Part shown: positions 46,015-49,861 of the stretch, piece by piece
How the letters are laid out: every line of letters begins with the position of its first letter
Position numbering within the stretch: the stretch's first letter is position 1
Assembly: GCF_029338395.1 (NCBI RefSeq)
Contig: NZ_CP119809.1
Span: forward strand, 2,666,001-2,730,000
Reading direction: 5' to 3'
DNA length: 64,000 nt
DNA from: Halorussus caseinilyticus
GTDB taxonomy: Archaea > Halobacteriota > Halobacteria > Halobacteriales > Haladaptataceae
Notes under the pieces: model-generated
Told to the model about the DNA's origin: nothing
What the model saw: only the letters and a program-made list of their open reading frames with translations
Databases searched by the model: none
Made by a program: the position numbers and the translations under genes

Positions 46015-46734
46015 ATGATTACCGTACTCGGGAGCGTCTTCCTCCTCGCGGGCGTCGCGTTCGGTTGGTACGGTCTCCGACCACTCGCGGTCGTGGCGCG
46101 ACTCGTGAGAGCCGAAACCGTCGGTCCGGCGTCAGTGAGTGCCGCCGACGAGTTCGTAGTCTGTCGCGGGCGTGCCCAGTCGGTCGGCGATTCGCTGACT
46201 GCACCGTTCACCGGCGAGAAGTGTCTCGGCCTCGAATACGAGATTAGCGAGCGCGAACTCACGCCGTCCGAGATTCCGTTTACGTGGACTCGACTCGACG
46301 ACGGCGTGGCGACGGTGCCTTTCGAGTTGCGCGACGACCGCGGTCGGGTCCGAGTCGACCCCGACCCGAGACGGTTCAGACTCGACACCGAGAGCGAGAC
46401 CGTCACCGTACCGGCGGGCGACGACCCACCGGAGCGCATCCGGTCGTTCGTCGCGGCCCGCGGCGACCTGTCGCCCACTGCGGGCGGTCTCCTCGCTCCG
46501 CTCGGTATCGGGACGCGGCGGTATACCGAGCGCCGAATCGACCCGGGAGAGGTCCACGTCGTCGCGGGTCGACCCGAGCGTCGAGACGGTCGCGTCGTCC
46601 TCGCCGACCCAGCCGTGATAGCCGACGAGTCGCCGCGGACGGTCGCCCGGCGTCGCCTCCGAGCGTCGGCGTTTCCGCTGGTCGCGGCGGTCGCGGCCTG
46701 TGTAGTCGGAGGGGGATTGCTCGCAGTCGCGTAG
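46015..46734 (+). CDS. GIDE/MULAN-like membrane protein
   Basis: A 239-residue protein with an N-terminal membrane helix (VLGSVFLLAGVAFGWYGLRP), a soluble GIDE-like region with FVVCRGRAQSVGDSLTAPFTGEKCLGLEYEI and EIPFTWTRLDDGVATVPFELRDDRGRVRVDP, and a C-terminal hydrophobic helix (PLVAAVAACVVGGGLLAV). In eukaryotes GIDE sits before a RING domain in MULAN; here there is no RING. The domain's role in archaea is unknown. It is convergent with the halocin-like gene. Confidence 0.7.
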   Translation: MITVLGSVFLLAGVAFGWYGLRPLAVVARLVRAETVGPASVSAADEFVVCRGRAQSVGDSLTAPFTGEKCLGLEYEISERELTPSEIPFTWTRLDDGVATVPFELRDDRGRVRVDPDPRRFRLDTESETVTVPAGDDPPERIRSFVAARGDLSPTAGGLLAPLGIGTRRYTERRIDPGEVHVVAGRPERRDGRVVLADPAVIADESPRTVARRRLRASAFPLVAAVAACVVGGGLLAVA

Positions 46735-46775: not shown

Positions 46776-47645
46776 TTAGAAGTAGGGGATGTCCACGTCG
46801 ATGATGTTTCCGGAGGCGTCGTCGGGACAAACGTCGATGAGCGGGTGCTTACAGATGGTCGCACCGAGGTCGTCGCCGCAGCCGCTCACGTAGTTGGCGA
46901 CGTAGCAGACCGCCTTGACGAAGGTGACGCAGGAGACGGCACCGACGACAGTGACGCCGAGCGCACCGCAGGCGAAGGCACCGACCGTGCTACAGAGCAG
47001 TCGGCAGGTCTTGTTGGTCGCCCAGTAACAGCCGCTACAGTAACTGATGTTCAGGTAGTCGGGGAAGTCCGTCCAATCGGTGGTGCCGACATCCTGCTGT
47101 GCGAGGGCGGTGACGGACTCGGGGTCGGGTTCGATGGTCGTGTGCGAGACGCCACTGTCGGTCGTCGGCTTGCCGAGTTGGGTCGCCTCGACTTCGGTCG
47201 CCGCCTCGTAGCGTTCGGTCTTCTGAAACACGCCGTCGTCGCCGTAGGTCTCGAAGTCGAGTTGTGCGAGTTCGACCGCCTCGGTGTCGAGGTCCCGGCC
47301 GATGACGATGGCCGCGCGGCGGTTCTCGTCGGTCTCGAAGTTGTACGCGACGAGTTCGCGTCGGAAGTCACCGGCTTCGACTCGCGCGGCGTCGAGCTTT
47401 TCGAGGTCCCACGAGAACTCGTAGCCCTTCTCGTTGGCGACTTCGAGGAGGGCGTCGAACTGCTCGGTCCGGGAGAGCTTTCTGGCGAGGGCCATCTTCC
47501 GACCCTTCTCCAGCATCGTGATGGGTTCGTCTTCGGGGCCTTCGGCCGCCGCGACAGAGACCGAGAACATTCCCGCGACACCGGCGACGCCAGCACTTCC
47601 CATACCTTTCAGCACGCTTCGTCTACTAGGTCCATTATCAGACAT
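46776..47645 (-). CDS. Halocin C8-like precursor (microhalocin with fused immunity domain)
   Basis: A 289-residue precursor. A Tat signal (PSRRSVLKGMGSAG...) ends near AAAEG. Residues about 36-190 are acidic without cysteine. The C-terminal third has ten cysteines at 203, 206, 214, 218, 226, 239, 247, 256, 265 and 273. This spacing (2, 7, 3, 7, 12, 7, 8, 8, 7) matches mature halocin C8 as I remember it (2, 7, 3, 7, 13, 7, 8, 8, 5), with shared residues such as C-x-x-C at the start and VSGCGD. In halocin C8 one precursor yields the peptide and its immunity protein HalI. TATA-like AT-rich DNA lies 27 bases before the ATG at 47645. No partner genes are seen. Confidence 0.82.
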   Translation of the reverse strand: MSDNGPSRRSVLKGMGSAGVAGVAGMFSVSVAAAEGPEDEPITMLEKGRKMALARKLSRTEQFDALLEVANEKGYEFSWDLEKLDAARVEAGDFRRELVAYNFETDENRRAAIVIGRDLDTEAVELAQLDFETYGDDGVFQKTERYEAATEVEATQLGKPTTDSGVSHTTIEPDPESVTALAQQDVGTTDWTDFPDYLNISYCSGCYWATNKTCRLLCSTVGAFACGALGVTVVGAVSCVTFVKAVCYVANYVSGCGDDLGATICKHPLIDVCPDDASGNIIDVDIPYF

Positions 47646-47740
47646 ACGACCACTCAATAAAACTTTAATTAAATAAAACTTTGCATTTATTCTTAATATG
47701 TTTAAAATTTTATGCTATAGAAGGAGAGGAGAACAACGAC
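47646..47740 (-). promoter_or_regulatory. AT-rich promoter of the halocin-like gene
   Basis: About 95 bases upstream of the ATG at 47645 are strikingly AT-rich. TTTTATTTAATT (centred near 47672 on the reverse strand) lies about 27 bases before the start, as in leaderless haloarchaeal promoters. A further AT block (47690-47715) could bind an extra factor. Confidence 0.6.
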
Positions 47741-47833: not shown

Positions 47834-49861
47834 TCAGGCCGTCTCGTACTCGCGCTCGTAGATTGCGTCGATTTCGTCGGCGAACCGGTCCAAGATGTTC
47901 CGGCGCTTCTTCTTCATCGTCGGGGTCAGCAAGTCGTTGTCCTCGGTGAACTCCTCGCCGACCACGCGGAACTGCTTTATCTGCTCGTGGGACTCGAACT
48001 GCTGGTTGATTCGCTCGACTTCCTCGTCCATCCACTCGCGCACGCGGTCGTGTCGCCGGAGTTCTCGGTCATCGTCGGGAAGGTCGATTCCCTTCCGTTC
48101 GGCCCGGCGGCGGACCTCCTCGAAGTTCGGAACCACGAGCGCCGAGACGAACTTGTGGCCGTCGCCGACCACCATGACCTGTTCTATCACGTCGCTCGCG
48201 GCGAAGGCGTCCTCGATGGGTCCCGGCGCGACGTTCTTGCCGGTCGAGAGGACCAGCAGTTCCTTCGCTCGTTCCTCGAACGCGACGTAGCCGTCGGGCC
48301 GCAACTCCACGATGTCGCCGGTCCGAAACCACCCGTCGTCCGTGAACGCGCGGTCGGTCGCGTCGGGCATCTCCCAGTAGCCGTCGGTCACTTGAGGTCC
48401 CTTCACGAGGAGTTCGCCGACCTCGCCGTCGGCGTCCGCGAAGATGGCCTGAGAGACGGTCGAACCGTCTACCTTCACCTCCGCGTCCACGACCGGGAGT
48501 CCGATGGTGCCGACCTTCGGGTCCTCTGGCGGGTTCACCGAGATGACCGGCGAAGTCTCGGTCAGGCCGTACCCCTCCAGAATCGGCAGTCCCATCCCGT
48601 GGTAGAGCGCACAGAGGTCGGCCGAGAGACTGCCACCGCCGGAGATGAGGAAGTCGATGTTACCCCCGAGTCCGTTCCGGACCTTCCGGAAGACGAGTTT
48701 GTCGGCGACGGCGCGCTTGGCGCGGAGCGCCGGACCGGGGTTCTCCGCCTCGAAGTACTCGCGGCCGACCTCGGTGGCCCACCCGAACAGTCGCTCGGAG
48801 ACCGCCGAGGACTCGGCCTGTTCGCGGATGGCGTCGTACATGCGCTCGTACACCCGCGGGACGCTGGTGCCGGTAGTCGGTTCGACCTGCTGGAAGTCCT
48901 CTTGGAGGGTCTCGGGGTCCTCGGCGTAGGCGACGGTCGCGCCGCTGGCGAACATCAGGAAGTGCCCCGCCAGTCGCTCGAAGACGTGGGCTAGCGGGAG
49001 GAACGAGACCGTCCGGGACTCCTCGCTGATGGTCGGCAGGTCGCCCTTGTCGGGTCGCGGACCGAACCGCTTGTAGCACTGGTTGACGTTCGACCGGAAG
49101 TTCCAGTGGGACAACCTGACACCCTTCGGTTGGCCGGTCGTGCCGGAGGTGTAGATGAGGGTGGCGAGGTCCTCCGGGTCGCGGGCGTCGAGCCACGACT
49201 CGTACTCGTCGAGGTCGAACGCCTCGCTCCCGCGCTCGTAGAGGTCGCCGAGCGTCAGCACGTCGAAGTCGGCGCGGTCGGCGAGCGATTCGCCGTCCGC
49301 GCCGAGTCCGTCTTGCGAGTCGCTTCGCTCCCCGCTCGCGTTCGAGGTCCGGGGAACCTCGCGGTCCATCACGACGGCGAAGTCGAGGTCGAGCGAGTCC
49401 TGTACCGACACCACGCGCTCCAGCAGTTCGGCGTTCTCCACGACCACGCCGTCGGCGTCGGGGTCGCCGAGCAGGTACTCCACTTGGTCGGGCGAGGACC
49501 CGCGGTAGACGGTGGTCACGACCGCGCCCGCCGCGAGCAGACCGAAGTCGGCCTGCGCCCACTCCATCCGGGTGTCGGCGAAGATACCTACCCGGTCGTC
49601 GGCTTCGACGCCGAGGTCCCGGAAGCCCGCCGCGAGCGACCGTACGATGTCGCGCATCTCGGCGTACGAGAGGGGTCGAAACTCCCCGTCGGCCGCCGCG
49701 GGAATCGCGCTCCCCGCGAGCGACCGGTCGTAGATGCCTCCTTTGTACTGCTGTGCCGGACGGTTCTCGTGCCGGGCCGCGCTCTCCTCGAACAACCGGG
49801 ACAGCGTGGACTCCCCGACAACCTCGTCCTCGTAGTCCCGTTCCGCGTCACGCCACTCCAT
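47834..49861 (-). CDS. Long-chain acyl-CoA synthetase (AMP-forming)
   Basis: A 675-residue AMP-binding enzyme with the P-loop LATLIYTSGTTGQPKGVRLSH, the LEGYGLTETSPVISVN motif, the GWFRTGDIVEL segment, and the C-terminal lysine region (LLTPTMKKKRRNI). It activates a fatty acid to acyl-AMP then acyl-CoA, feeding beta-oxidation; a thiolase gene is at 38482. The N-terminus SRLFEESAARHENRPAQQY is normal for FadD-type enzymes. It is a single gene; the halocin-like gene follows 188 bases downstream. Confidence 0.9.
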   Translation of the reverse strand: MEWRDAERDYEDEVVGESTLSRLFEESAARHENRPAQQYKGGIYDRSLAGSAIPAAADGEFRPLSYAEMRDIVRSLAAGFRDLGVEADDRVGIFADTRMEWAQADFGLLAAGAVVTTVYRGSSPDQVEYLLGDPDADGVVVENAELLERVVSVQDSLDLDFAVVMDREVPRTSNASGERSDSQDGLGADGESLADRADFDVLTLGDLYERGSEAFDLDEYESWLDARDPEDLATLIYTSGTTGQPKGVRLSHWNFRSNVNQCYKRFGPRPDKGDLPTISEESRTVSFLPLAHVFERLAGHFLMFASGATVAYAEDPETLQEDFQQVEPTTGTSVPRVYERMYDAIREQAESSAVSERLFGWATEVGREYFEAENPGPALRAKRAVADKLVFRKVRNGLGGNIDFLISGGGSLSADLCALYHGMGLPILEGYGLTETSPVISVNPPEDPKVGTIGLPVVDAEVKVDGSTVSQAIFADADGEVGELLVKGPQVTDGYWEMPDATDRAFTDDGWFRTGDIVELRPDGYVAFEERAKELLVLSTGKNVAPGPIEDAFAASDVIEQVMVVGDGHKFVSALVVPNFEEVRRRAERKGIDLPDDDRELRRHDRVREWMDEEVERINQQFESHEQIKQFRVVGEEFTEDNDLLTPTMKKKRRNILDRFADEIDAIYEREYETA

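Follow-up and report, generated by a model that had tools for sequence, protein, structure and literature searches.

Genes and features of the locus

The window analyzed here, meaning the whole 64,000-nucleotide stretch of Halorussus caseinilyticus DNA (NZ_CP119809.1, positions 2,666,001 to 2,730,000), encodes on its minus strand a halocin C8-like precursor. Its open reading frame starts with ATG and comprises 289 codons plus a stop codon at 46776-46778. The following features were assigned to the gene and its neighbor, all coordinates being those of the window:

46776..47645, minus strand: halocin C8-like precursor gene, 289 aa (open reading frame, family models and four orthologues)
47670..47678, minus strand: putative TATA box TTTTATTTA, about 30 nt 5' of the ATG
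47544..47645, minus strand: twin-arginine signal peptide, residues 1-34 (SRRSVLK ... SVAAA), assigned by eye from the sequence
47202..47501, minus strand: Hac8_like_N domain (PF22862), residues 49-148, the HalI-like part (83.2 bits, cut-off 27)
47430..47507, minus strand: helix-loop-helix of the HalI-like domain, residues 47-72 (AlphaFold2, pLDDT about 87-92)
46779..47057, minus strand: predicted mature peptide, residues 197-289 (alignment with residues 208-283 of the canonical precursor L063)
46827..47039, minus strand: ten-cysteine halocin core, residues 203-273 (TIGR04449 match and measured gaps)
46779..46826, minus strand: acidic C-terminal tail PDDASGNIIDVDIPYF, residues 274-289, net charge -4, conserved in the clade described below
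46015..46734, plus strand: GIDE-domain protein, 239 aa, with hydrophobic segments at both ends (PF12483, 25.0 bits, cut-off 23.6)

The TTTAT core of the putative TATA box lies within a local A+T-rich island and lines up across the five orthologous upstream regions; its distance of about 30 nt from the ATG suggests a short-leader or leaderless transcript. An initial annotation of this DNA had described a Tat-exported protein of 289 residues. The length is correct, the strand, which the annotation left unstated, is minus, and the Tat signal is supported by the sequence, its RR being invariant among the relatives, though the generic Tat models stayed under their cut-offs (TIGR01409: 13.7 versus 16.7; PF10518: 16.3 versus 22.7).

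Family membership and domain architecture

Judged from its sequence, the gene is a member of the halocin C8-like family. In addition to the N-terminal PF22862 match, hmmscan placed the halocin_C8_dom model TIGR04449 on residues 203-268 (35.3 bits, cut-off 24), so that the Pfam and the NCBIfam model both score above their curated cut-offs and in the right order along the protein. BLASTP against L063, a canonical precursor of 283 aa, showed 33% identity over 270 aa (E 7e-43), and a profile-versus-profile comparison with the canonical precursors using hhalign resulted in a probability of 100 (E 7.7e-44), with an alignment that runs from the signal through the N-terminal domain to the cysteine core and stops short of the tail. 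The profile search originally proposed as a check for halocin C8 similarity thus returned a significant match and not the empty result named as counter-evidence. With the two family models, BLASTP and hhalign all matching, the identification as a halocin C8-type precursor is supported.

The front part (residues about 36-190) had been taken for a HalI-type immunity domain, and both the PF22862 match and the predicted helix-loop-helix agree with a N-terminal domain of the HalI/proC8 type. AlphaFold2 models two adjacent helices (residues 47-58 and 61-72) followed by five or six strands. According to the title of Mei 2008, as listed in PMC11509114, the N-terminal helix-loop-helix of HalI is essential for immunity. 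In two AlphaFold2 runs with only five sequences, the mature part was modelled as low-confidence helices (pLDDT 25-60). Neither the PDB sequence search with the window protein nor the PDB fold search with the first model gave anything significant, and no relatives of the precursor were found among the viral contigs searched.

Across the class, TIGR04449 gave 28 matches in 20 of 99 genomes, PF22862 only in 10 of 99; many members of the TIGR04449 family carry other or diverged N-terminal domains, unlike the window protein. Several further architectures were observed among proteins with these domains. In L067 (G010:C2:186731-187006), a Hac8-type N-terminal domain stands alone: this 146-aa protein has neither signal nor cysteines, shares 69% identity with the corresponding domain of the full precursor L059 from another Halorussus genome, and looks like an orphan immunity protein. 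Unusually long Tat proteins of about 680 aa carry the halocin_C8 domain at their extreme C-terminus (L056, L057), and four other proteins with this domain (L021, L034, L038, L060) show a different ten-cysteine spacing of about 2,7,11,3,12,3,11,7,5.

Cysteine core and predicted mature peptide

The window protein contains cysteines at residues 203, 206, 214, 218, 226, 239, 247, 256, 265 and 273 and no others, corresponding to gaps of 2,7,3,7,12,7,8,8,7 and to a cysteine-free stretch from residue 1 to 196. All ten cysteines are kept in four syntenic orthologues (79-82% identity). On re-measurement, the initial description of ten cysteines at 203-273, their gaps, a cysteine-free front part and 16 residues behind the last cysteine proved exact, and the halocin C8 gaps that it had given (2,7,3,7,13,7,8,8,5) are those measured in the 283-aa precursors L063, L131 and L132.

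The predicted mature peptide would have a mass of 9.7 kDa in oxidized form and 8.0 kDa without the tail, values that depend on the exact cleavage site. Apart from an LNI/IDI-T/S-x-C context, the putative cleavage region (residues ~185-200) is unlike that of canonical proC8. In L063, L131 and L132, the last 76 residues start with D-I-(D/E)-(I/V)-T, which reads DIDITGC in L063. We take L063 to be halocin C8 itself, based on the published sizes and on the N-terminal sequence of the peptide. These sizes are 283 aa for ProC8 and 76 aa for mature halocin C8 (PMC11509114). A text search of the literature for that N-terminal sequence found no paper.

A clade of tailed precursors

A profile of close relatives matched in 23 of 391 genomes of the class, and the full-length relatives fall into two groups. 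In the canonical group, with gaps of 2,7,3,7,13,7,8,8,5, the protein ends at the last cysteine. The tailed group comprises 13 members including the window protein, with gaps of 2,7,3,7,12,7,8,8,6-7 and a tail of 16-20 residues resembling GDIIDVDIPYF; one member, L066, has lost one cysteine. The tail is present in all 13 clade members and absent from all four canonical precursors. In a tree built after removal of all tail residues, one branch with 100/100 support still splits tailed from canonical precursors, and the tail therefore marks a lineage. This clade spans the genera Halorussus, Natrinema, Haloterrigena and Haloferax, with named members from Halorussus amylolyticus (L097), Natrinema thermotolerans (L099), Haloterrigena salina (L098) and Haloferax larsenii (L100). 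The gene of Haloterrigena salina JCM 13891 (L098) has an in-frame TGA within its signal peptide and is possibly a pseudogene.

The tail is always acidic, with a net charge of -1 to -7. The tailed cores range from -3 to +5 and are positive in 8 of 13 (+1 in the window protein), versus -4 to -8 in the canonical cores. What had been described as an extra tail of 16 residues is thus present, but it is a conserved element of a 13-member clade and no idiosyncrasy of this protein.

With ProC8 (HalI plus HalC8; Natrinema, Haloterrigena), the window protein shares the Tat signal, a HalI-like domain with helix-loop-helix, a ten-cysteine C-terminal peptide, the first four cysteine gaps and the sixth to eighth. 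ProC8 differs in its fifth gap (13 versus 12 in the window protein) and its ninth (5 versus 7), in its lack of a tail, in its acidic core and in its neighbors, namely an HTH regulator, small membrane proteins and a 500-aa membrane protein, none of which lies beside the window gene. In gap pattern, in continuing beyond the last cysteine and in lacking the conserved halC8 neighbors, the window protein therefore departs from halocin C8 in the strict sense. The tailed relatives L064/L099, L098, L100, L051, L066 and L128-L130 have the same gaps and a tail ending in a ...IIDVDIPYF-like sequence; they are 40-49% identical to the window protein and lie in other neighborhoods, several with one or both of the small proteins S1 and S2 nearby (see below).

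The designation of the gene as new, in the sense of an isolated case, has to be withdrawn in view of the tailed clade, and a review already mentions putative genes for halocin C8 in the genus Halorussus (PMC11509114). A sub-branch of halocin C8 with an acidic tail and without the usual helper genes is a variant of something known and not a new system. In the literature accessible to us, with key halocin papers outside our reach, neither the tailed clade nor its regulator-free locus was found described. Provisionally, we regard both as new, although an earlier description may exist.

Distribution and selection within Halorussus

In Halorussus, the precursor gene sits between an acyl-CoA ligase gene (47834-49861, minus strand), which was found in all 18 Halorussus genomes searched, and the convergent GIDE gene, 41 bp away. 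In five of these 18 genomes, the halocin gene is present at this one syntenic site together with the GIDE gene (G000, G004, G005, G007, G010), while GIDE alone is present in G001 and neither gene in the other 12. At several empty sites the methylase and the ligase almost abut, for instance with 22 bp between them in L138. The carriers are scattered on the acyl-CoA ligase tree, which fits an old gene that was repeatedly lost, or one exchanged at this site. We also considered a halocin remnant between ligase and GIDE in G001; this was rejected, as only 52 bp separate the two genes, leaving no room.

The region beyond GIDE is variable as well: the N6 DNA methylase-like protein of the window (PF02384; 43741-45921, plus strand) is present at the site in some congeners and absent in others, and in L052 a 1295-aa gene follows the methylase. 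These may be restriction or defence genes.

Among the carriers, the halocin gene is under purifying selection (whole-gene pN/pS 0.17-0.41; 0.29-0.31 for the window gene against its four orthologues). The mature part evolves more slowly in every pair, with dN of 0.01-0.10 in residues 196-273 versus 0.12-0.23 in residues 37-195. Family models above cut-off, orthologues that keep the ten cysteines and a dN/dS far below one together argue that the precursor is not a chance open reading frame. A degenerate or silent halocin gene is in our view highly improbable: the missing hal cluster and the interrupted signal peptide of the tailed relative L098 would fit such decay, but the reading frame of the window gene is intact and has all ten cysteines, its ratio to the four orthologues is that of a constrained gene, and its promoter-like element is conserved in five genomes.

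A secreted cysteine-rich protein of halocin C8 fold could also serve another role, such as signalling, a surface or envelope function or DNA uptake, and not kill at all. Such a role would fit the vertical inheritance at a fixed chromosomal site, the strongly conserved mature part and the fact that regulator and membrane-protein genes seen at active halC8 loci have been lost, and the halocin HalH4 has been reported to promote DNA uptake (PMC6759562). Nevertheless, all characterized relatives in the literature surveyed are antimicrobial, and patchy presence among close relatives (5 of 18) is typical of conflict genes, not of housekeeping genes. We regard a non-killing role as unlikely.

Neighboring genes and the question of immunity

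The canonical halC8 loci L063 and L131-L133 share an HTH regulator of the HVO_A0261_N/FilR1 type, the small protein S1, an S2-like small protein and a 500-aa membrane protein. One or both of S1 and S2 are kept at the tailed loci L100, L128, L129 and L130, and S2 also at L064 and L066. At the Halorussus locus, none of the four was found, and a genome search showed that S1 is absent from the whole genome of the window. The initial annotation had found it remarkable that, unlike at known halocin loci, neither regulator nor exporter lies beside the gene. The absence itself is borne out. A missing exporter is no puzzle, since the Tat pathway requires no dedicated transporter.

S1 is a family of 70-75 aa with two TM segments that recurs next to halocin C8-like genes of the canonical and, in part, of the tailed group (for example L100:7683-7907, minus; L128:9260-9478, plus; L129:6894-7112, plus; L063:11249-11458, plus); no Pfam or NCBIfam model matched it above cut-off. 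The family is present in 42 of the 391 class genomes, with a halocin precursor within 1.5 kb at at least one third of the best 30 sites, and is a candidate immunity or accessory protein. We considered S1 and S2 as the missing immunity gene, since they stand beside many relatives, and dismissed them for this locus, as both are absent from the window and S1 from the genome. Unrelated small two-TM open reading frames, on either strand, were observed 25-242 bp downstream of eight halocin_C8-domain genes of Halorussus and relatives (L050, L053, L055, L056, L057, L061, L062, L065).

The GIDE protein, whose terminal hydrophobic segments are likely membrane-spanning, is a candidate partner that might, speculatively, replace these membrane companions. 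Taken further, immunity could come mainly from GIDE, with the N-terminal domain of the halocin C8-like precursor acting as a chaperone or pro-region. GIDE adjoins all five Halorussus halocin loci, where it occupies the slot of the small two-TM protein found downstream of other HalC8-like genes, and 12 of the 13 halocin-free genomes lack it at the site (Fisher p 7e-4, though the genes are physically linked); the nearly abutting methylase and ligase at empty sites likewise suggest that both genes come and go as a cassette. Against this, 160 of the 391 class genomes encode relatives of GIDE, no halocin precursor lies within 1.5 kb of any of the 26 closest ones from other genera, G001 has kept GIDE without a halocin, and the two genes are convergent and not co-transcribed. 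We consider GIDE-borne immunity distinctly unlikely. As a dedicated halocin partner, GIDE was set aside: the case from its co-gain and co-loss with the halocin within the genus is weakened by the spread of the family across the class without halocins.

Proposed maturation and function

Family membership, domain order, conservation and the presence/absence pattern were obtained directly in this analysis. From these, we consider it probable that the product is a precursor of the halocin C8 type, belonging to a separate tailed subfamily, and that it is exported and cleaved into an immunity part and an antimicrobial peptide. A single-gene transcript from its own promoter would yield the precursor. 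By analogy to halocin C8, this would be exported in folded form through the Tat pathway and then cut near residue 196, probably by a subtilase of the halolysin type acting outside the cell. The N-terminal HalI-like part would then protect the producer, and the C-terminal ten-cysteine peptide of about 93 residues and 9.7 kDa, with up to five disulfides, would act on haloarchaea related to the producer, killing or inhibiting them most probably at their surface or membrane. Several points speak against this reading: the peptide is more strongly conserved than a fast arms race would suggest, the usual hal-cluster neighbors are missing, the putative cleavage region agrees with canonical proC8 only in the short context given above, and the structural models of the mature part are of low confidence.

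Candidate maturation proteases are plentiful, as the subtilase family (PF00082) has 26 matches in the genome. About ten subtilase genes stand in tandem on one strand outside the window (G000:C1:1658997-1671763). For two secreted precursors of Haloferax mediterranei, HalH4 and HmHapP (HFX_0892), proteolytic activation by extracellular halolysins has been documented; HalC8 is also stated to be proteolytically released, its protease being given as unidentified (PMC12893001). HalH4 and HmHapP are named there as different precursors, HmHapP releasing its N-terminal part, and are set apart from the window protein by this description.

Speculatively, the acidic tail may keep the near-neutral to basic core acidic enough for brine, and it may mask the core until removed. 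The stronger form of the latter idea, in which the conserved tail is a built-in mask or second pro-region that shields the core until a protease removes it, appears to us quite doubtful. If true, a masking tail would play in archaea the part that anionic pro-pieces play in defensins, at an orphan, regulator-free locus paired with GIDE.

To our knowledge, there are few archaeal antimicrobials for which both gene and product are known. A tailed single-gene locus, together with natural genomes with and without the gene at one site, offers one testable system in which the maturation protease of halocin C8-type peptides, the sufficiency of a HalI-like domain for immunity and the role of the tail could be addressed.
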